From positions 1 through 24,433 of the IMG/VR virus record IMGVR_UViG_3300023176_002712: a DNA stretch of 24,433 nucleotides. One strand, given 5' to 3'. Shown here in pieces: positions 3,168-13,863 of this stretch. A program made the position numbers and the translations under genes. This stretch comes from a virus. Within the stretch, counting starts at the first letter, position 1; each line of letters starts with the position of its first letter. Below the pieces are notes generated by a model that was not told the DNA's origin, searched no databases, and saw only the letters and a list, made by a program, of their open reading frames with translations.

Positions 3168-3818
3168 ATGCAAATAGATTATGTGTTTCCACATCCAATT
3201 GCAAGATTGGATATAAGTGATGAGGTGAATAATGATAGTATTGTTAAGTCTGTCATTGAATTATCAGAAACTATAGATGAGAATAGCGCATCCAATTTCT
3301 GGGATTGCAAACTTATAACTTCATTTGAAAATGAAGAAATCAATCTTGAATTTGCGAGAGACAACATTTCTTTTATTGAAGTTGTTGAGAAGCATGTAAA
3401 TCAATATATGGTAGAAGTTGGTTGGTACAAACCACACCTACCGAATAAAATTACTCAAATGTGGTTCAACAGATATATTGAAGGTCATCATTTTCAAGAA
3501 GCACACAATCATGGCAATCATGAAGTGTGTGCTATCTATTATGCTACTAATGATTTGACACCTACTCTATTCTTAAATCCTAATCATCATACTTTTCATA
3601 ATCATTATGATGCTTGTGATGTAACTGAAGTCACTAGAAGAGCATATGAAGCATATTCCCAGACGGGCACACTTGTAATCTTTCCTGGTTACATGCTACA
3701 CACAGTACCTTATATAAGAAAAAAAATGACAGAGTTTGATTTAGAAAAAGATAGAATGACTATTGCCATGAATTTCGGTAAATATGAGGAATCTGTCTTG
3801 ACAAAGATAGATAAGTAG
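3168..3818 (+). CDS. 2OG-Fe(II) oxygenase (2OG-FeII_Oxy_5-like)
   Basis: A 216-residue protein has the double-stranded beta-helix pattern of phage 2OG-Fe(II) oxygenases. HFQEAHNHGNHEVCAIYY (H113/H115) carries the first iron ligands. TLVIFPGYMLHTVPY holds the distal His (H178), and R196 in DRMTIAMNFG is the likely 2-oxoglutarate-binding Arg. A long His-rich loop (LNPNHHTFHNHYD, about residues 136-148) is unusual. AGGAAT precedes the ATG, and the gene follows the hypothetical gene after 14 bases. Such enzymes hydroxylate proteins, nucleobases or small molecules; the target here is unknown. Confidence 0.85.
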   Translation: MQIDYVFPHPIARLDISDEVNNDSIVKSVIELSETIDENSASNFWDCKLITSFENEEINLEFARDNISFIEVVEKHVNQYMVEVGWYKPHLPNKITQMWFNRYIEGHHFQEAHNHGNHEVCAIYYATNDLTPTLFLNPNHHTFHNHYDACDVTEVTRRAYEAYSQTGTLVIFPGYMLHTVPYIRKKMTEFDLEKDRMTIAMNFGKYEESVLTKIDK

Positions 3819-6049: not shown

Positions 6050-6796
6050 ATGTCAAAACAAAAGTCCTTAGCGGTAAGAGCAAAATGCTTAACTAAATCA
6101 TCACTAAAGAAAATAAATCCGATTACAGATAATCAACTCAGAACATTTGAGGCGTTTAACGAAGATAAACATTTGATGATGCATGGATGTGCTGGAACAG
6201 GTAAAACATTTATTATGCTTTATCTTGCAATGAGAGCAGTTTTATCTAGACAAGTTGACCAACAGAAAGTTTATATTGTTAGGTCAATGTTACCAACAAG
6301 AGACATAGGTTTCTTGCCAGGTTCACAAGAAGAAAAAACAAGTGTATATACTGAACCTTACTATTCTCTCTTTGATGAAATGTTTCCAGATGTAGAGAAT
6401 CCATACGAACTCGCTAAGTATCAAGACATTGTAGAATTTGTGCCGACCTCATATATAAGAGGTGTAACATTACGAGATGCTTTCATTATTGTAGATGAAT
6501 GTCAAAATCTAAACTTTCATGAGTTAGACACAATCATTACAAGAGTGGGAGATAATAGTCGTATCTTTTTCTGTGGGGACTTCATGCAAACTGACTTGAA
6601 GAACAATGCAGAACAACGAGGTCTTATTCAGTTTATGGATATAATCAAAAATATGAAATCTTTTGAAACAATTGACTTTACTGAAGAAGATATTGTAAGA
6701 AGCGGTCTTGTGAAAGAATATATAATAAGCAAGAACCAAAAACAATATGAAGGTATATTTGAAAGCGTAGATAAGAAGATGCGACAAGTTGCCTGA
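6050..6796 (+). CDS. phoH: PhoH-like ATPase
   Basis: A 248-residue P-loop ATPase has Walker A GCAGTGKT at residues 46-53, Walker B IIVDECQN around 146-153, and the PhoH hallmark FCGDFMQTDL (sensor region). An RSMLPTRDIGFLPG block follows Walker A, as in PhoH. PhoH is a common auxiliary gene of marine phages; in some organisms it is tied to phosphate starvation, but its biochemical role (RNA helicase or ATPase) is unsettled. GAGGAG lies before the ATG. It is followed by a small membrane protein and the lysozyme. Confidence 0.93.
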   Translation: MSKQKSLAVRAKCLTKSSLKKINPITDNQLRTFEAFNEDKHLMMHGCAGTGKTFIMLYLAMRAVLSRQVDQQKVYIVRSMLPTRDIGFLPGSQEEKTSVYTEPYYSLFDEMFPDVENPYELAKYQDIVEFVPTSYIRGVTLRDAFIIVDECQNLNFHELDTIITRVGDNSRIFFCGDFMQTDLKNNAEQRGLIQFMDIIKNMKSFETIDFTEEDIVRSGLVKEYIISKNQKQYEGIFESVDKKMRQVA

Positions 6797-6809: not shown

Positions 6810-6971
6810 ATGAGAAAATGGATTAACGCAAGAATTGGCGAAAGAACTAGTTGGGATGGAGCAGTGCTTATTGGCGCTGGCGTAGCATTTTTAATTTTTG
6901 CACCAATCGCTGATATCGTAGCATATGGTGCGATTGCATACGGTGCTTGGACAATATTCAAAGGAGAATAA
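6810..6971 (+). CDS. Small membrane protein, possible holin (53 aa)
   Basis: A 53-residue protein starts at 6810 after AAGGAGA. The basic N-terminus (MRKWINARIGERTSWDG) is followed by a long hydrophobic stretch, AVLIGAGVAFLIFAPIADI and VAYGAIAYGAWTIF, enough for one or two membrane segments. Similar short proteins occur in marine T4-like phages. Its gene lies two bases upstream of the GH108 muramidase start, so a holin or pinholin role is plausible but not shown. A longer in-frame start at 6789 overlaps phoH and has no ribosome site. Confidence 0.7.
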   Translation: MRKWINARIGERTSWDGAVLIGAGVAFLIFAPIADIVAYGAIAYGAWTIFKGE

Positions 6972-6973
6972 AG

Positions 6974-7552
6974 ATGGCAAAAGAGAATTGGGGAAACTGC
7001 ATTTCTAAAGTTCTCATTCATGAGGGTGGTTATGTAAATCATCCAAAAGACCCTGGTGGTATCACGAATATGGGTGTCACCAAGAGAGTTTATGAAGAGT
7101 GGGTTGGTCACGAAGTATCTGAACAAGATATGAAAGACTTAACAGAAGATGATGTAAGACCAATCTATAAGAAAAACTATTGGGATAGAATTAAGGGAGA
7201 CAAACTTCCTGATGGTCTAGACTTGTGTGTTTTTGACTTTGGAGTAAATGCAGGTACAGGTCGTGCCGCAAAATATTTGCAGAAGATGATTGGTACTACT
7301 GCAGACGGTGGGATAGGACCCAATACTCTGAAAGCACTGAAATCATATGTGAAAGAAAATGGTCTAGTAGAAACTATCAAGAAGTATCAATCAAATCGTC
7401 AAGACTACTATGAAAGTCTGAGTACATTTGATACTTTCGGTAGAGGTTGGACAAATCGTAATAACGATACAACTGAATACGCAATAGAACTCGCCGAGAG
7501 TGATGATGATGAAAATACTAGAGAAGCAGATAGAAATTCTATAAAGACTTGA
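6974..7552 (+). CDS. Endolysin: GH108-type N-acetylmuramidase
   Basis: A 192-residue peptidoglycan hydrolase. The N-terminal motif VLIHEGGYVNHPKDPGGITNMG is characteristic of glycoside hydrolase family 108, with E17 in HEGGY as the catalytic acid. The second half (VFDFGVNAGTGRAAKYLQ, then GTTADGGIGPNTLKAL) matches the family's peptidoglycan-binding domain 3. It has no signal peptide, so export would need a holin, and the small membrane protein just upstream is a candidate. AAGGAG precedes the ATG at 6974. The C-terminal tail (LAESDDDENTREADR) is an acidic extension. The stop codon lies inside a promoter -35 box. Confidence 0.92.
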   Translation: MAKENWGNCISKVLIHEGGYVNHPKDPGGITNMGVTKRVYEEWVGHEVSEQDMKDLTEDDVRPIYKKNYWDRIKGDKLPDGLDLCVFDFGVNAGTGRAAKYLQKMIGTTADGGIGPNTLKALKSYVKENGLVETIKKYQSNRQDYYESLSTFDTFGRGWTNRNNDTTEYAIELAESDDDENTREADRNSIKT

Positions 7553-7596: not shown

Positions 7597-8268
7597 GTGA
7601 AATATACACACATTGAAGAAATTGATTATAATAGTAGTCTACCAGAATTAACAACTGAGCAAAACGACAACCTAAGACTGTACGTTACACCAGATGGTCA
7701 AAAATATCCATCAGTTACTACAGTCTTAGGTTGGCACACTCGTAAAGGTATTATGGAGTGGCGCAAGCGAGTAGGTGATGAAGCGGCGAACAAGATATCT
7801 CGCCAAGCATCATCAAGAGGTACAAGATTTCATTATCAGTGCGAAGACTATCTCAACAATAAAGAACCTAAGATTGAGGGTCCTGGTGAGATGTCTATGT
7901 TCAGTAGTATTAAACCTTTCTTACATCGTATAGACAATATACACTTTCAAGAAAAAACTATGTACTCAAAGTTTCTACAAACTGCAGGTCGTGTGGATTG
8001 CGTTGCTGAGTTTGATAATCGTTTGTCTATTATCGATTTCAAGACATCAAGTAAACCTAAAAAAGAAGAGTACATCAGCAATTACTTCATGCAAGGTGCG
8101 GCGTATGCAGTTATGTTCGAAGAGAGAACTGCAAAACCTATTGACCAGATTTGTATCTTGATTGCAGTTGAGGGTGATGAAGCACAACTATTCAAAGTTA
8201 AGAGAGATGATTACATAGAACAATATCGAAGTGTCAGAGATGCATGGCGAGATGCTCATGGATATTGA
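7597..8268 (+). CDS. PD-(D/E)XK nuclease (RecB/Cas4/MGME1-like exonuclease)
   Basis: A 223-residue nuclease. Motifs in order: SSRGTRFHYQCEDYL (residues 72-86; H79 is the RecB-family motif I His), E119, D134 in TAGRVDCVAEF, the core IIDFKTS (D147, K149), and motif QGAAYAVM (Q166, Y170), which is typical of RecB-family and MGME1-like exonucleases. It would cut or trim DNA ends in replication, recombination or host DNA breakdown. It starts at GTG, preceded by AGAGGA; an ATG eight bases upstream is out of frame and stops after three codons. The strong promoter at 7549 suggests early expression. It overlaps the following 2OG oxygenase gene. Confidence 0.88.
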   Translation: MKYTHIEEIDYNSSLPELTTEQNDNLRLYVTPDGQKYPSVTTVLGWHTRKGIMEWRKRVGDEAANKISRQASSRGTRFHYQCEDYLNNKEPKIEGPGEMSMFSSIKPFLHRIDNIHFQEKTMYSKFLQTAGRVDCVAEFDNRLSIIDFKTSSKPKKEEYISNYFMQGAAYAVMFEERTAKPIDQICILIAVEGDEAQLFKVKRDDYIEQYRSVRDAWRDAHGY

Positions 8269-8782
8269 CAACATTCAACTCTTTTCCTCAAACTTATATA
8301 AATACTTTTTACCGACATCACTTGTTGATGATTGTAAAGAAGAATTAGTAGAGTATGCTAAAAATAATAAAAGTGGAATTCAACAATACTTTACCACTTA
8401 CAATACTTTTTTAGAAACTGTTGATAGTATAGGTCCTTCTTGTAAATTAATTAGTGACAGTGTTGTTAGAGTTGCAACAATATTGTCAGAACGCCGAGTA
8501 AGAGTGGAGAATAGTTTCTTTAACTATGTACCTAAAGGTAATGTTCACTCAAAGCACAATCATGGCGGTAAAGAAATGATATGTGCTATTGTTTACTTTG
8601 ATACTATTGGTCAAACAAATTTTTATGATCCTAGACCTCAAGTATTCAATTGGCAACCTCATGTCGAAGTTGCTGAAAAAGGCAAAGTAGTTTTCTTTCC
8701 TGGTTGGTTAGAACATGATATGCCTGCTCATTATGAAGATGAGTTTAGAATTACAATGCCTTTTAATATGCTCATACAGTGA
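8258..8782 (+). CDS. 2OG-Fe(II) oxygenase (2OG-FeII_Oxy_5-like)
   Basis: A 174-residue protein with the same fold pattern as the oxygenases at 3168 and 1-520. VHSKHNHGGKEMICAIVYF carries H100 and H102, followed by TNFYDPRP. GKVVFFPGWLEHDMPAHY holds the distal His H153, and R164 in FRITMPFN is the probable 2-oxoglutarate Arg. The start was placed at the third of three clustered ATGs (8240, 8252, 8258) because MDIDNIQLFSSNLY matches the usual family beginning; the others differ by only a few residues. The start lies within the end of the exonuclease gene. Confidence 0.87.
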   Translation: MDIDNIQLFSSNLYKYFLPTSLVDDCKEELVEYAKNNKSGIQQYFTTYNTFLETVDSIGPSCKLISDSVVRVATILSERRVRVENSFFNYVPKGNVHSKHNHGGKEMICAIVYFDTIGQTNFYDPRPQVFNWQPHVEVAEKGKVVFFPGWLEHDMPAHYEDEFRITMPFNMLIQ

Positions 8783-9247: not shown

Positions 9248-10312
9248 ATGCCACCTCGTAATCATAAGCAGTGGTCATCAGCACCACGAATAGAAGCAAT
9301 TAGTAGTAGAGCATATAATAACTACGAAGTATACAAACAAGAACAAGAACTAATATTCAGTAAAGTCTGGGTACCGATGTGTCACATCTCTGAGATGTAT
9401 GAGACAGGTGAGTTTCGCACTACGCAAATAGCAGGTGTGAATGTAATTGCAGTGAATGACCATGATGGTGTTAGAGCATTCAGAGACCATTCTATTGAGC
9501 AAGTCTCTGGTTGTTTATCTTGTCCTTACGAAGGTAATGAGATATATTGTGAAGTCAAGCATGGGGGTATGGTTTGGGTAACACTTAACCCTAACCCCAC
9601 ACAGTCAGTAGAAGAATGGACTGCAGGTGCATTTGATTGTATTGCAGACGCAATTGACACAGAAGAAATGGAAGTCTTTCACTATCACAAAGCAGTGATA
9701 GATACAAACTACAAACTGTGGCATGACACAAACAGTGAATTCTATCACGACTTCATGCATTACTTTAATAGAGTGTCAGGATTCAATGATGAATATTTCG
9801 CTAGAAAAAATATTCCTTTTGATAACGGTCATGTTAATGTTAGTAGTTTTACTGTTAATTACGAAGAGTATGACGGATTTGAAGATAGAGGGAATTTATC
9901 TTTTCCCAATCTGCCGCCCAACCAGTGGTACATGGTCGACCTCTTTCCAGGATTCAACTTTAACCTCCGTGGGAGTGCATATCGTTCAGACACAGTAACA
10001 CCACTTGGTCCGAATAAAGTATTGATTGAGTTTCGTGGATATGGATTAAGAAAAGATACATCAGAAGAAAGACAAACTCGTATCAAGCATCACAATAGTA
10101 TATGGGGACCTTTCGGTAGAAACTTGCACGAAGACCTTATTGGTGTAGCAGGTCAAGGCACAACAATGCGTGAAGGTACAGAAACAAGAAACATTCTACA
10201 TGGAAGACATGAGAATGGAACTATACATGATGAAGTAGGTATGAGACACTACTATACTGAATGGGGTAAATATCTAGATATCGACCCATATGTTCTTGAC
10301 AAAGTTGCTTGA
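9248..10312 (+). CDS. Rieske-type non-heme iron oxygenase, degenerate Rieske motif
   Basis: A 354-residue protein resembles the alpha subunit of ring-hydroxylating oxygenases. The catalytic mononuclear iron site looks intact: SEFYHDFMHYF gives H167 and H171, and NLHEDLIG gives D296. The N-terminal domain has the usual order (FSKVWVPMCHISEM, DGVRAF, CPYEG, GMVWVTLN), but the [2Fe-2S] motif C-x-H...C-x-x-H is damaged: the first pair reads FRDHS (no Cys) and the second reads CPYEG (Glu in place of His). Extra cysteines lie at 89 and 101. A working Rieske cluster is therefore doubtful. The substrate is unknown. AAGGAG precedes the ATG. A promoter for the tmRNA lies inside the 3' end. Confidence 0.85.
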   Translation: MPPRNHKQWSSAPRIEAISSRAYNNYEVYKQEQELIFSKVWVPMCHISEMYETGEFRTTQIAGVNVIAVNDHDGVRAFRDHSIEQVSGCLSCPYEGNEIYCEVKHGGMVWVTLNPNPTQSVEEWTAGAFDCIADAIDTEEMEVFHYHKAVIDTNYKLWHDTNSEFYHDFMHYFNRVSGFNDEYFARKNIPFDNGHVNVSSFTVNYEEYDGFEDRGNLSFPNLPPNQWYMVDLFPGFNFNLRGSAYRSDTVTPLGPNKVLIEFRGYGLRKDTSEERQTRIKHHNSIWGPFGRNLHEDLIGVAGQGTTMREGTETRNILHGRHENGTIHDEVGMRHYYTEWGKYLDIDPYVLDKVA

Positions 10313-10326
10313 ATGTAGTATAAATA
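10296..10326 (+). promoter_or_regulatory. Hybrid sigma70/late promoter for tmRNA
   Basis: Perfect TTGACA (10296-10301) lies 17 bases before TATAAA (10319-10324), which is part of the T4 late sequence TATAAATA (10319-10326). A start near 10331 would fit the acceptor piece of the tmRNA. The -35 box is inside the end of the Rieske gene. Confidence 0.78.
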
Positions 10327-10330
10327 GAAT

Positions 10331-10614
10331 TGAATTTGATGACACATGTTGGAGGATTGTAGGACGTGGGGGCAGTACCCACCGCCTCCACCAAAAGCAC
10401 ACTGGATGGTGTTTGTATCAAGACCGTCAGTGGAACAATACAATCCCAGTGTGCTTTTGATGGGGGCGAAATAGGTTCGACTGCATTAAGAAGGCATGAA
10501 GAGAATTCAAAAACATAAATGCAAACGATAACATTGCATATGAAGATGTTCGCCTAGCGGCATAATCTTCTGGGTGTTGTGGGGACGCCTGGAAACAGAA
10601 GAAGCAATTGCTTC
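10331..10614 (+). ncRNA. ssrA: Permuted two-piece tmRNA
   Basis: tmRNA rescues stalled ribosomes and tags the product for proteolysis. The gene is permuted, as in Alphaproteobacteria: acceptor piece first (about 10340-10393), intervening hairpin, then coding piece (from 10462). The acceptor piece has GGACGTGGG, the T-arm GTGGG-GGCAGTA-CCCAC (10366-10382), CGCCTCC and ACCA ending at 10393. CGCCTCC pairs with GGGGGCG (10462-10468) over 7 bp including one G-U. The coding piece has GGTTCGAC, as in all tmRNAs. The tag frame at 10521-10565 encodes ANDNIAYEDVRLAA and a stop; it ends in the usual LAA. A P2-like helix joins CATGTT (10345-10350) and GGCATG (10493-10498). The stem CTTCTG/CAGAAG after the tag frames a pseudoknot-like domain. 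The 5' and 3' limits are approximate. Confidence 0.93.
10393..10458 (+). repeat. Intervening hairpin of pre-tmRNA
   Basis: AAAAGCACACTGG (10393-10405) pairs perfectly with CCAGTGTGCTTTT (10446-10458), a 13-bp stem that closes the segment between the CCA end and the coding piece. In permuted tmRNAs such a segment is removed to give two RNAs; the hairpin brings the two acceptor-stem halves together for processing. Confidence 0.8.
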
Positions 10615-10651
10615 ACCCTACATTACACACATACACACAAGGAGAAATAGT

Positions 10652-10870
10652 ATGAGTAATCCATTCGACTTACGCTTTAGTATGATACAAAGCGCCAGAG
10701 AGTTGCTCACAGAGCAATATCACACTGATATCAATAATGTTAAAGAGAAATACTATGCAGACAAAGAAGCAGGACTAGATGTTCAGTTTCCAGAAATGCC
10801 GCCATTTCCGACATTCGAAGATATCAGCAAACTAGCAAATGAGATGAATTCTTTCGTTTCACAACGCTAA
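10652..10870 (+). CDS. Conserved T4-like phage protein MSNPFDLR (72 aa)
   Basis: A 72-residue protein begins MSNPFDLRFSMIQSARELL. This N-terminus is recurrent in small hypothetical proteins of T4-like marine phages. It is mostly helical and charged (NVKEKYYADKEAG), with a Pro-rich linker (FPEMPPFPTFEDI). No function is known to me. AAGGAG lies before the ATG at 10652; the longer in-frame start at 10574 would sit in the tmRNA and is rejected. It is followed by a strong terminator, so it and the tmRNA probably form one transcription unit. Confidence 0.75.
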   Translation: MSNPFDLRFSMIQSARELLTEQYHTDINNVKEKYYADKEAGLDVQFPEMPPFPTFEDISKLANEMNSFVSQR

Positions 10871-10916: not shown

Positions 10917-10931
10917 ATAATAATGTATATT
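10903..10931 (+). promoter_or_regulatory. Possible sigma70 promoter overlapping the terminator
   Basis: TTGACT (10903-10908), in the 3' arm of the terminator stem, lies 17 bases before TATATT (10926-10931). Transcription would begin close to the ATG at 10938. It is a plausible match, but overlapping AT-rich motifs are common here. Confidence 0.4.
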
Positions 10932-10937
10932 AGTCTA

Positions 10938-11438
10938 ATGATTAAATATCTCGCACCTTTTTTATTACTTGCATCTAGCGCATTAGCAGATGATGTAAAA
11001 CTACCAAGCACTAATTCAAAAGTATGTCTTGCTAATAACATATATCATGAAGCAAAGTCACAATCTACTGCAGGTCAAATAGCAGTTGGTCTTGTAGTTA
11101 TCAATCGTGTTCGTGATAGTAGATTTCCTGATACGATTTGTGAAGTTGTATACCAAGCAGAATATTCAACTTGGTGGAAAGAAGAAAAAGGTAAAGATAT
11201 ACCTAGAAGGCACAGATGTCAGTTCTCCTGGTTCTGTGACGGTAAACCAGAAATCATACATGACACAGAAGCATATGAAAGAATTTTGAGACTTGTTAAT
11301 AGAATATTAACAAACAGATACGCTGGCATGATTGAAGGTGCTACACACTATCATGCAGATTATGTCAATCCAGATTGGAACAAAGAAAAAACAAGAATTG
11401 GACAAATCGATGACCATATTTTTTATAGGTGGGACTAA
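10938..11438 (+). CDS. SleB-type cell wall hydrolase with signal peptide
   Basis: A 166-residue protein has the signal peptide MIKYLAPFLLLASSALA, probably cleaved before DDVK. The mature protein has the SleB/hydrolase_2 pattern: CLANNIYHEAKSQSTAGQIAVGLVVINRV, with E38 as the likely catalytic Glu, then QFSWFCDGKP and GATHYHADYVNPDW. The family cuts peptidoglycan as a lytic transglycosylase or amidase. The signal peptide suggests Sec export, in contrast to the cytoplasmic GH108 enzyme. The start at 10938 rather than 10923 was chosen because it gives a clean signal peptide and the upstream ATG lies in a promoter -10. The stop overlaps the gp33 start (TAATG). Confidence 0.9.
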   Translation: MIKYLAPFLLLASSALADDVKLPSTNSKVCLANNIYHEAKSQSTAGQIAVGLVVINRVRDSRFPDTICEVVYQAEYSTWWKEEKGKDIPRRHRCQFSWFCDGKPEIIHDTEAYERILRLVNRILTNRYAGMIEGATHYHADYVNPDWNKEKTRIGQIDDHIFYRWD

Positions 11439-11665
11439 TGAATCCTGAACCAATGACACCAAAAAGATTTAGTAAAATTATTGAAGATATTGTACTAGAT
11501 AAAGCAATCACGCATATGGATGCTATTCTTCTATATTGTGATGAGCATGAACTTGAACCAGAAGATGTGAAGAAGTTTGTGAGTAAAACACTTAAAGATA
11601 AAGTCACTGTCAATGCACAAGACTTACATTATTTACCTAAGACTACTGCGGAGTTGCCGGTATGA
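11438..11665 (+). CDS. 33: gp33-like late transcription co-activator
   Basis: A 75-residue protein similar to gp33 of marine T4-like phages (ITHMDAILLYCDEHELEPEDVKKFVSKTL, then KVTVNAQDLHYL). In T4, gp33 binds the RNA polymerase beta-flap and links it to the sliding clamp so that late promoters (TATAAATA) are activated with sigma factor gp55. It is shorter than T4 gp33 (112 residues), as in marine relatives. The ATG at 11438 overlaps the previous stop; the GTG at 11429 is in frame but lacks support. It starts the gp33-2OG-gp59-gp32 cluster, close to T4 order. gp55 is not in the window. Confidence 0.82.
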   Translation: MNPEPMTPKRFSKIIEDIVLDKAITHMDAILLYCDEHELEPEDVKKFVSKTLKDKVTVNAQDLHYLPKTTAELPV

Positions 11666-12249
11666 TTTTAAAATATTGTTATTCAACTACAAAACCTGTT
11701 TTTACTTTACCTGAAGTTGATAAAATTATTCAGATGGGCGAAGTGAATTTAGAAGATGCTAAGATAGATGGAACTGAAGCGGCAATACAGGGACACAGAA
11801 ATAGTTCTATATCTTGGTTCAAAAGAAATTCTGATACTGAATTCATTTATAAACCTTTACTTAAAATGATATATCTGGAGAATGTAAATAATAATTGGAA
11901 CTTTGATTATGATGCAATCGAAGATTTACAATTTACAACTTATGGTCCTGAACAACATTACAATTGGCACGCCGACCAGAGAAGTGTGCCGTATACTGAT
12001 ACTGACAAGTATCTACAAGGTAAGATTAGAAAGATTAGTTTCTCTGTGCTACTTAATCATGATTATGAGGGTGGTGAGTTTGAATTTGAATTAGGACTAC
12101 CACATGAAGAGAATAGAACTGAATTGTGTCAAGTAAAGACAGGAGAAGCAATTGTTTTTCCATCATTTACTTATCATAGGGTTCGACCCGTCACAAAAGG
12201 TAAGAGATATAGTTTAGTAGGATGGATATGCGGCAAACCTTACAGATGA
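11662..12249 (+). CDS. 2OG-Fe(II) oxygenase (prolyl-4-hydroxylase-like)
   Basis: A 195-residue protein with a full 2OG-Fe(II) site: H103-x-D105 in YNWHADQR, distal H172 in TYHRVRPV, and R182 (KGKRYSLVGW) for 2-oxoglutarate. The strand SVLLNHDYEGGEFEF is typical of the prolyl-4-hydroxylase/PiuC-like branch, which differs from the other three oxygenases here. The start forms ATGA with gp33, and its stop forms ATGA with gp59, so it is embedded in a coupled translation unit of the replication and transcription genes. The substrate is unknown. Confidence 0.88.
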   Translation: MILKYCYSTTKPVFTLPEVDKIIQMGEVNLEDAKIDGTEAAIQGHRNSSISWFKRNSDTEFIYKPLLKMIYLENVNNNWNFDYDAIEDLQFTTYGPEQHYNWHADQRSVPYTDTDKYLQGKIRKISFSVLLNHDYEGGEFEFELGLPHEENRTELCQVKTGEAIVFPSFTYHRVRPVTKGKRYSLVGWICGKPYR

Positions 12250-12881
12250 ATGAATTCGATGCTTTCAATGTGTATCTTGCTTTTAAGTTACACTTCACAA
12301 CAGATAGATATGATATAACAAAGACTAGAGGCGCAGTCAAGACAAAAGATGAAACTTTTTATAAAAGGTCTGACCAGTTTAATTTTAAGAAACTTGCAGA
12401 AGAGTTTAGTGAAGATGAACTACCTAAGTTTTTAATTGCTAATCATGTTGATGGTAATCGATGGGGTGGTGCTTTCATTTATGAAGAAGCATTACAAGTA
12501 TATAATAAATGGAAAGGTCGCTTACAGAGTTTAACTAAAAACTTGCATGATGACCTTGATGAGATTTGTTCAGAACTTGATGAAGAGAATATCAATAAGT
12601 TCGACAAATGCTTTGTAGTTAAAGATGAGCAACATCCTCTTCTACTACAAATGTATAGTCGTGGAGATGTAACAATCGAAACGATGTTGATACTAGATGC
12701 TATTAACAACTATTTGACATATTGGGATAAGACGCTCGGTGATGATTTCTTCTGGAAAGAAGAACGGCGAAAGTTAATTAAATACCGACCTTTTCTTGAT
12801 TTTGATGTTGACAAATACAAGGCAATAGTGTATAGTAAGCAACAGAAATATGATGAAAGTCGTATAAATAGTAGCATATGA
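12246..12881 (+). CDS. 59: gp59-like DNA helicase loader
   Basis: A 211-residue basic and helical protein similar to T4 gp59 (217 residues), which loads gp41 helicase onto gp32-coated forks. Shared patterns are FNVYLAFKLHFTTDRYDITK, AVKTKDETFYKRSDQFNFKKLAE, and YRPFLDFDVDKYKAIV near the C-terminus. ATG at 12246 overlaps the previous stop. An in-frame start at 12222 adds eight residues inside the upstream gene and is less likely. It directly precedes gp32, as in T4, and the two proteins act together at the fork. Confidence 0.85.
   Translation: MNEFDAFNVYLAFKLHFTTDRYDITKTRGAVKTKDETFYKRSDQFNFKKLAEEFSEDELPKFLIANHVDGNRWGGAFIYEEALQVYNKWKGRLQSLTKNLHDDLDEICSELDEENINKFDKCFVVKDEQHPLLLQMYSRGDVTIETMLILDAINNYLTYWDKTLGDDFFWKEERRKLIKYRPFLDFDVDKYKAIVYSKQQKYDESRINSSI
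12863..12870 (+). promoter_or_regulatory. T4-type late promoter upstream of gp32
   Basis: An exact TATAAATA lies within the 3' end of gp59, 73 bases before the gp32 start. No -35 box is seen at 17 bases. Confidence 0.5.
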
Positions 12882-12942
12882 TGAATATGTGGATAAGATA
12901 AACTTATACAACGCAATATAACGTACATACGAGGTAATACAA

Positions 12943-13863
12943 ATGACAAATTTTGCACAACTAAAAAAGTCTAACGACAACCTATCCCGCCTACTTTCAG
13001 AAGTAGATAAAGTAAACAAACCCCAACAGTCAAACAACAGCAATCAAGATGAACGCTTCTGGCGTCCAGAACTTGATAAGTCTGGTAATGGTTATGCTGT
13101 AATTCGTTTTCTTCCTCAAAGTGAAGGTGAAGAACTTCCTTGGGTTCGTGTTTTCAATCACGGGTTTCAAGGTCCTACTGGTAAGTGGTATATTGAAAAC
13201 TCACTCACTACCCTCAATCAGAAAGACCCTGTAGCAGAGTATAACTCTATTCTGTGGAACTCTGGCACTGAAGCAAACAAAGATATTGCACGAAAGCAGA
13301 AGCGTAGACTTTCGTATATCGCTAATGTCTTAGTAGTCTCTGACCCAAAGCATCCTGAGAATGAAGGTCAAGTCAAACTGTTTAAGTTTGGTAAAAAAAT
13401 CTTTGATAAGATTATGGATCACATGAAACCACAGTTCGAAGATGAAACACCTGTCAACCCATTTGATCCTTGGGCAGGTTGTAACTTCAAACTCAAAATT
13501 CGTAAAGTAGAAGGTTTTACTAACTACGATAAATCTGAGTTTGATAGTGCGTCACCTTTGTTTGAAGGTAATGATGAGAAGATTGAAAGTCTATGGAAGT
13601 CTCAATACAAACTGCAAGAGTTTGTTGCGCCTTCTAACTTTAAATCTTATGACGAATTGAAAGCAAAACTAGATTTGGTACTGAACTTGAATTCAGCACC
13701 AGAGACTTTTGCACCAAGTGCGCCAGCACCTGTTGCAGAAGAAAGCGCACCTTGGGTGGCAGAAGAGAAATCTACACCACAAGTTGCAACAACTTCTAAT
13801 GTTGATGATGATGAAGATGATGAAGCAATGTCATACTTCAGCAAGTTAGCATCTGAAGATTAA
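12943..13863 (+). CDS. 32: gp32 single-stranded DNA-binding protein
   Basis: A 306-residue ssDNA-binding protein that covers and protects replication intermediates. It has the gp32 layout: a basic N-terminus (MTNFAQLKKSNDNLSRLL), the OB-fold core (WVRVFNHGF...GKWYIENSL, LSYIANVLVVSDPKHPENEG, KLFKFGKKIFDKI, FKLKIRKVEGFTNYDKSEF), and the acidic tail (NVDDDEDDEAMSYFSKLASED) that in T4 contacts partner proteins. The T4 zinc ligands Cys77, Cys87 and Cys90 have no counterpart; the region reads LTTLNQKDPVAEYNSILW. The linker is Ala/Pro-rich (APSAPAPVAEES). It follows gp59, and a terminator lies downstream. Confidence 0.95.
   Translation: MTNFAQLKKSNDNLSRLLSEVDKVNKPQQSNNSNQDERFWRPELDKSGNGYAVIRFLPQSEGEELPWVRVFNHGFQGPTGKWYIENSLTTLNQKDPVAEYNSILWNSGTEANKDIARKQKRRLSYIANVLVVSDPKHPENEGQVKLFKFGKKIFDKIMDHMKPQFEDETPVNPFDPWAGCNFKLKIRKVEGFTNYDKSEFDSASPLFEGNDEKIESLWKSQYKLQEFVAPSNFKSYDELKAKLDLVLNLNSAPETFAPSAPAPVAEESAPWVAEEKSTPQVATTSNVDDDEDDEAMSYFSKLASED

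Follow-up and report, generated by a model that had tools for sequence, protein, structure and literature searches.

Phage tmRNAs are known yet unexplained. The window, i.e., the whole stretch of DNA that was analyzed (positions 1-24,433 of IMG/VR record IMGVR_UViG_3300023176_002712, one strand), is a 24.4-kb viral fragment in which an alpha-type, circularly permuted tmRNA gene extends from 10332 to ca. 10619 on the plus strand. The gene sits between an MsmA-like gene and gp33, gp59 and gp32 of a T4-like phage, upstream of gp33 with two small genes in between (Table 1). The original prediction was of a phage-encoded, permuted two-piece tmRNA; every element it described (acceptor piece, T-arm, CCA end, hairpin, coding piece and tag) was found, the 7-bp acceptor stem and the P2-like helix between the pieces are both present in the sequence, and the adjoining T4-type genes bear out that it is phage-encoded. 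That prediction mentioned neither the composite promoter nor the genes that close relatives carry in their spacers.

Anatomy, selection and spread of the tmRNA

A single permuted tmRNA (10301-10656) with the tag ANDNIAYEDVRLAA was called by ARAGORN, and the alpha type that had been proposed was confirmed by Infernal with two Rfam families, RF04321 (tmRNA_permuted; 10332-10565, positions 1-213, 97.0 bits against a cut-off of 47, E 5e-18) and RF01849 (alpha_tmRNA; 10292-10609, positions 1-355, 94.9 bits against a cut-off of 50, E 5e-25), i.e., full-length at about twice the curated cut-offs. Folded as a single strand, the precursor is unusually stable (z = -5.1, with none of 200 shuffles equally good). 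Its acceptor piece terminates in CGCCTCCACCA at 10393, the acceptor stem formed between the two pieces contains G3.U70, and the inter-piece helix pairs UGUAG (10358-10362) with CUGCA (10481-10485). The G3.U70 pair is the alanine identity element used for alanine charging. The coding piece carries GGTTCGAC at 10474-10481, and the tag has an ANDN start and a hydrophobic-AA end.

Table 1. Features of the tmRNA locus in the window and of its neighbors
Feature	Position	Strand	Evidence
Ring-hydroxylating oxygenase alpha-subunit-like gene, MsmA homologue, upstream of tmRNA	9248..10312	+	PF00848; 72% identity to SAR116 phage HMO-2011 homologue
Putative composite promoter: TTGACA 10296-10301, 17-nt gap, TATAAATA 10319-10326	10296..10326	+	sequence; position and spacing conserved in phage homologues
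Acceptor piece (P2 strand, T-arm, 3' acceptor strand, encoded CCA)	10332..10393	+	RF04321 match start; ARAGORN; CCA end at 10393
T-arm, alpha-type loop GGCAGTA; stem 10366-10370/10378-10382	10366..10382	+	Rfam match; stem pairs kept in 58/58 sequences
Acceptor stem 3' strand CGCCTCC and ACCA; gives G3.U70	10383..10393	+	sequence; homologue alignment
Intervening sequence (spacer), 68 nt, closed by 12-13 bp stem	10394..10461	+	sequence; stem covaries in relatives
Coding piece: acceptor 5' strand GGGGGCG (10462-10468), AAATAGGTTCGAC, tag frame, 3' structured region	10462..10619, 3' end approximate	+	ARAGORN, Rfam, comparison with near twins
Tag reading frame ANDNIAYEDVRLAA and stop	10521..10565	+	ARAGORN
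gp33-like late-transcription coactivator gene, 3' of tmRNA	11429..11665	+	phrog_254, E 1.6e-19
gp59 helicase loader and gp32 ssDNA-binding protein genes (T4-like core)	12222..13863	+	phrog_269, phrog_224

Selection on this structure is evident when 58 diverse phage homologues are aligned without their spacers, as the compensatory changes expected of a maintained RNA are present. In the T-stem all five pairs are kept in all 58 sequences and show as many as four pair types; in the inter-piece helix (P2) six pairs are kept in 88-100% of the sequences and show up to six types. The acceptor stem is nearly constant, its G.U invariant, and hence uninformative. Among 76 distinct tags, 70 start with ANDN and 64 end in LAA; the tags of bacteria are built alike, with greater variety at their ends. 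Unusually long tags of 29 residues (ANDNAL.NVTFVDFSAPVTAVNEDFALAA) were seen at five loci (L074, L087, L115, L141 and L148), and another reaches 31 residues. The window RNA scores 94.9 bits where bacterial homologues reach ca. 240-313 among the matches listed, and owing to this far lower score an altered function is possible.

Such genes recur in T4-like phages. In viral contigs found by tmRNA motif, a T4 core gene lies on the same locus for 62 of 102 distinct tmRNA genes, a frequent order being nuclease or oxygenase, tmRNA, gp33, gp59, gp32. Among 40 loci picked independently, on gp32 similarity alone, and with 4 kb or more of upstream sequence, 19 held a permuted tmRNA, seven found by motif and 12 by ARAGORN only, and we therefore consider it a widespread component of such phages. 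No smpB was seen in 16 phage records (tmRNA carriers or members of the same group), which include the 141.6-kb Melnitz genome, most of the others being perhaps fragments; host SmpB is thus the likely, not proven, partner. Cellulophaga phage matches were rejected as permuted, as they are short and confined to the acceptor region at the 3' end of the annotated tmRNA, which is therefore probably one-piece.

The phage-borne two-piece tmRNA is itself already published and so not new: the available text of Buchholz et al. 2022 (PMC9004378) describes one, with a promoter called early, in Melnitz (MZ577095-98), a phage of OM43 Methylophilales, and counts 53 two-piece phage tmRNA genes by ARAGORN. The alphaproteobacterial host that had been read from the tmRNA type does not follow, because on that account Melnitz carries the alpha type and infects OM43 Methylophilales. 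Like the phage of the window, Melnitz is a T4-like marine phage with its permuted tmRNA upstream of gp33 and a TTGACA-17-TATAAATA promoter, but it differs in its tag (ANDNYVPVDYALAA) and in a glutamine riboswitch on the tmRNA 3' side, none being present in the window, where neither glnA nor another riboswitch was found (RF01739 gave no match at E up to 5 in 10250-10700). In Melnitz the covariance-model match to the tmRNA stops at 6346, so that the aptamer (6354-6402) falls outside it, a short way to the 3' side. The ssrA of Pelagibacter phage Mosig (MT647606), a SAR11 phage, is likewise permuted and adjoins gp33, but its coding piece has a diverged start (GGGGGTGTGGTAGG), its spacer is short and gene-free, and no TATAAATA was seen just upstream. 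Alphaproteobacterial permuted tmRNAs (RF01849/RF04321) share with the window the gene order, the T-loop, the acceptor stem G.U, GAAATAGG.TCGAC and an ANDN...AA tag; unlike the phage ones, those sampled have short spacers and no TATAAATA upstream, whereas phage spacers hold genes.

The surroundings offer further observations. The MsmA-like protein has no Rieske domain match, and by eye its CxH and CxxH cluster motifs are replaced by RDH and CPYE, so its [2Fe-2S] site looks lost; relatives of this protein are encoded on at least 598 viral stretches. The fragment also carries two unlike candidate endolysins (6947-7552, GH108 type, and 10923-11438, Hydrolase_2 type) and, within ca. 9 kb, three 2OG-Fe(II) oxygenase genes (3168-3818, 8231-8782 and 11662-12249).

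A putative composite promoter upstream of the acceptor piece

The stretch TTGACA-17-TATAAATA, which overlaps the 3' end of the MsmA-like gene and ends 6 nt before the acceptor piece, looks like a fusion of two promoter types, with a -35 box of the sigma70 kind followed by a T4-type late motif that would also act as the -10. In the window TATAAATA is enriched (13 occurrences against 3.0 expected, with none of 100 shuffles having as many). Across the distinct phage tmRNAs with enough upstream sequence it stands 41-50 nt before the T-arm in 77 of 117, as against 0.16% of background windows, and TTGAC lies exactly 17 nt upstream at 51 of these 77 sites but at only 8 of 226 other TATAAATA sites in the same loci. 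None of 97 bacterial tmRNA genes with both pieces located has TATAAATA within 75 nt upstream.

T4-type late transcription starts six nucleotides past the late motif. Here this predicts a start at 10332, exactly where the RF04321 match begins. Of the marks of a T4-type late promoter, the window has the motif, its position and gp33, while gp55 was not seen in the fragment. We infer from this arrangement that a single start would be used by both the host sigma70 polymerase and the phage late machinery. Common in phage tmRNAs and absent from the sampled bacterial ones, the composite promoter looks new: the available text of PMC9004378 has sigma70 and TATAAAT motifs scanned separately in Melnitz, and a literature search found no description of it, subscription papers being mostly out of reach and absence no proof.

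The spacer and the genes within it

In phages the spacer is closed by a stem: over 71 distinct spacers, 88.5% of cells are paired between the first 11 nucleotides past CCA and the nucleotides 5-15 ahead of the acceptor strand, as against 62.5% with shuffled partners (sd 1.4, maximum 67.5) and 35-56% off register. It shows many pair types, and the window's 13-bp hairpin (arms 10393-10405/10446-10458) is the same stem; matches of this hairpin to micro-RNA families were set aside as chance, their scores being far under the family cut-offs. Bacterial spacers have a similar, less complete stem, and the strongly covarying closure of the spacer appears to be new. Bacterial spacers are also short, with a median of 34.5 nt and no more than 116 nt in any of 112 genes, whereas phage spacers reach 499 nt; in a class-wide search across 289 genomes, the bacterial matches listed have a total span of ca. 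290-440 nt. One apparent 1480-nt bacterial spacer (L288) arose from a false T-arm match, its true length being ca. 115 nt.

What a longer spacer may contain is best seen in three near twins of the window (L126-L128), which are 99.1% identical to it over the 800 nt through the acceptor piece and 99.5-100% over a 190-nt coding stretch, but have, instead of its 68-nt spacer, an unrelated one of 267 nt with a gene for a 78-aa membrane protein preceded by a Shine-Dalgarno-like sequence. A scan with this protein, which has a strongly hydrophobic segment, returned 26 loci, where the gene mostly starts 18 nt past CCA and stops 15 nt ahead of GGGGGCG. Within the family dN is ca. 0.03-0.14 against a dS of mostly 0.6-1.6, and changes at codon positions 1, 2 and 3 number 200, 62 and 548. 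Related genes also occur outside any tmRNA found (L226-L229).

Other spacer groups comprise MKNPLV... (38-44 aa, ten loci), a YLSG-motif group that includes Melnitz, ...DLC, RLW-NEE and a DUF2061-like one; several further groups were left out as alternate frames of real genes or frames within the conserved tmRNA piece. A spacer frame with relatives in other spacers or a family-like match is present in 28 of 102 distinct genes from the motif scan. The Melnitz spacer (142 nt) has a Shine-Dalgarno-led candidate frame, MFKWLSKT...IPKYLSG; the available portion of PMC9004378 reports no spacer gene. A 35-aa family (MDE...YICINNYS..HARL..MGAK) ends on GGG-GCG-AAA-TAG, i.e., on the tmRNA acceptor strand and the invariant AAATAG, and outside this overlap has a mean dN of 0.19 and a mean dS of 1.12 (21 pairs with computable dS). 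If RNase P cuts before GGGGGCG, its message would lose the stop codon.

Some spacers are more crowded or unusual. One (L218) has two genes overlapping at AAGTGA, and another (L020) contains a 120-aa membrane-like protein with a weak holin-like match that lies outside the spacer in many other phages. In five (L036, L049, L054, L081 and L090) the MKNPLV gene is overlapped at its start by a further frame, read in a different phase, which begins at offset 13, has its own Shine-Dalgarno sequence and would encode 23-25 aa (...GDSDEE.S.KKNIGG.V), either a leader peptide or coincidence.

Pfam and PHROGs gave only weak matches to the spacer proteins (the best, DUF2061-like in L093, just below the cut-off), PADLOC gave none, and no cultured phage encoding the 78-aa or the 35-aa protein was found. 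The window's own spacer carries no convincing gene of this kind, though its near-identical twins do: the 22-codon frame MVFVSRPSVEQYNPSVLLMGAK, whose stop is the TAG at 10472-10474, was rejected and is treated as chance because it lacks a clear Shine-Dalgarno sequence and relatives in the sample. In the relatives, the patterns of codon change indicate that the loop of the spacer stem carries small genes under purifying selection, which again looks new. The 2025 tmRNA survey (PMC11915505; 79 phage sequences) describes, in its available text, a tRNA-Ala gene in one intervening sequence and a repeat in another, as against the protein genes seen here, and reports no protein-coding cargo there; a literature search returned no report of protein genes in tmRNA spacers, with the caveat that subscription papers mostly lay out of reach and absence is not proof.

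What the phage tmRNA may do

We consider it probable (ca. 0.8) that this T4-like phage carries a working alpha-type two-piece tmRNA that acts in ribosome rescue and whose spacer is usable for cargo. In such a scheme transcription would start at ca. 10332 both early, by the host sigma70 RNA polymerase, and late, by the phage gp55/gp33 machinery, host RNase P would cleave before GGGGGCG and host nucleases would trim to CCA, and the spacer, whose stem probably keeps the acceptor ends in contact before they are processed, would be thrown away; because it is discarded, its loop could carry cargo. The paired pieces would be charged with alanine and bound by host SmpB, and the charged phage tmRNA would free ribosomes stalled on broken mRNAs in infection, adding the ANDN...LAA tag for proteolysis by the host. 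In related phages the loop holds small, mostly membrane-protein genes, which would be part of the tmRNA transcript, the window phage having the plain 68-nt form. Ribosome rescue during infection, part of the original prediction, is thereby supported as probable, while a phage tag that replaces the host's found no support, given that phage and bacterial tags share the ANDN...LAA form. The phage RNA may compete with the host tmRNA instead of supplementing it.

Two other views of the RNA have to be weighed. tmRNA genes are common integration sites, so a functionless passenger copy of a host gene, acquired by imprecise prophage excision, could be imagined here, as could a mis-assembled host contig. 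The available text of Buchholz et al. (PMC9004378) suggests such an excision origin for Melnitz. We find this very improbable, as the gene keeps its site ahead of gp33/gp59/gp32 even among phages with gp33 proteins only 35-55% identical and recurs in 19 of 40 gp32-selected loci, and the compensatory changes that maintain its structure largely refute the passenger reading. A decoy that occupies SmpB, alanyl-tRNA synthetase or ribosomes and so blocks host trans-translation would fit the divergence in score from bacterial tmRNAs and has a precedent in the tag-less DS6A phage RNA, reported to block host trans-translation and cited in the available text of PMC11915505; unlike DS6A, these RNAs retain the tag frame, with both ends conserved in 76 distinct tags, and their T-stem and P2 are under selection, which leaves the decoy an improbable reading.

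As to the spacer frames of relatives, many are short, and frames of 12-30 codons often arise by chance in spacers this long, so they might be by-products of a conserved RNA; this too we judge improbable, slightly more so than the decoy, in view of the excess of third-position changes (548 against 200 and 62), a dN far under dS in two families, the Shine-Dalgarno-like sequences, the occurrence of the 78-aa family outside tmRNAs and the DUF2061-like frame in L093. Taken as genes, they could still have no regulatory tie to the tmRNA, the spacer being simply a tolerant landing site. We regard this as rather likely and compatible with ribosome rescue by a cargo-bearing tmRNA: different, unrelated genes occupy the spacer, near-identical tmRNAs occur with and without one, and some spacer genes are also found elsewhere in related phages, although start signals often fall within or beside the stem and some families overlap the tmRNA, ending at the invariant AAA-TAG, so that processing would remove their stop codon. 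That spacer gene and tmRNA work together as a single regulatory unit, and so as a self-titrating sensor for the rescue of ribosomes in infection, is improbable, if less so than the decoy; the idea applies to the relatives and not to the window's short spacer. Were it true, the RNase P cut would make a spacer frame ending in GCG-AAA-TAG non-stop, its ribosomes would be rescued and tagged by the released tmRNA, and synthesis of the small spacer protein would be confined to times when processing or the supply of tmRNA is limiting.

Taken alone, the tmRNA of the window belongs to a known type, and the novelty rests on the wider set that includes its near-identical relatives. In this set the spacer that a permuted tmRNA discards has become a place for small genes, and a likely early-and-late promoter stands in front. 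Near-identical tmRNAs that either have or lack a spacer gene provide a natural control, and Melnitz, cultured and with a candidate spacer frame, is a bench system. The composite promoter predicts that the phage tmRNA acts both early and late, the spacer genes show that protein genes can reside in a portion that a non-coding RNA gene discards, and one spacer protein family even shares its last codons and stop with the tmRNA.
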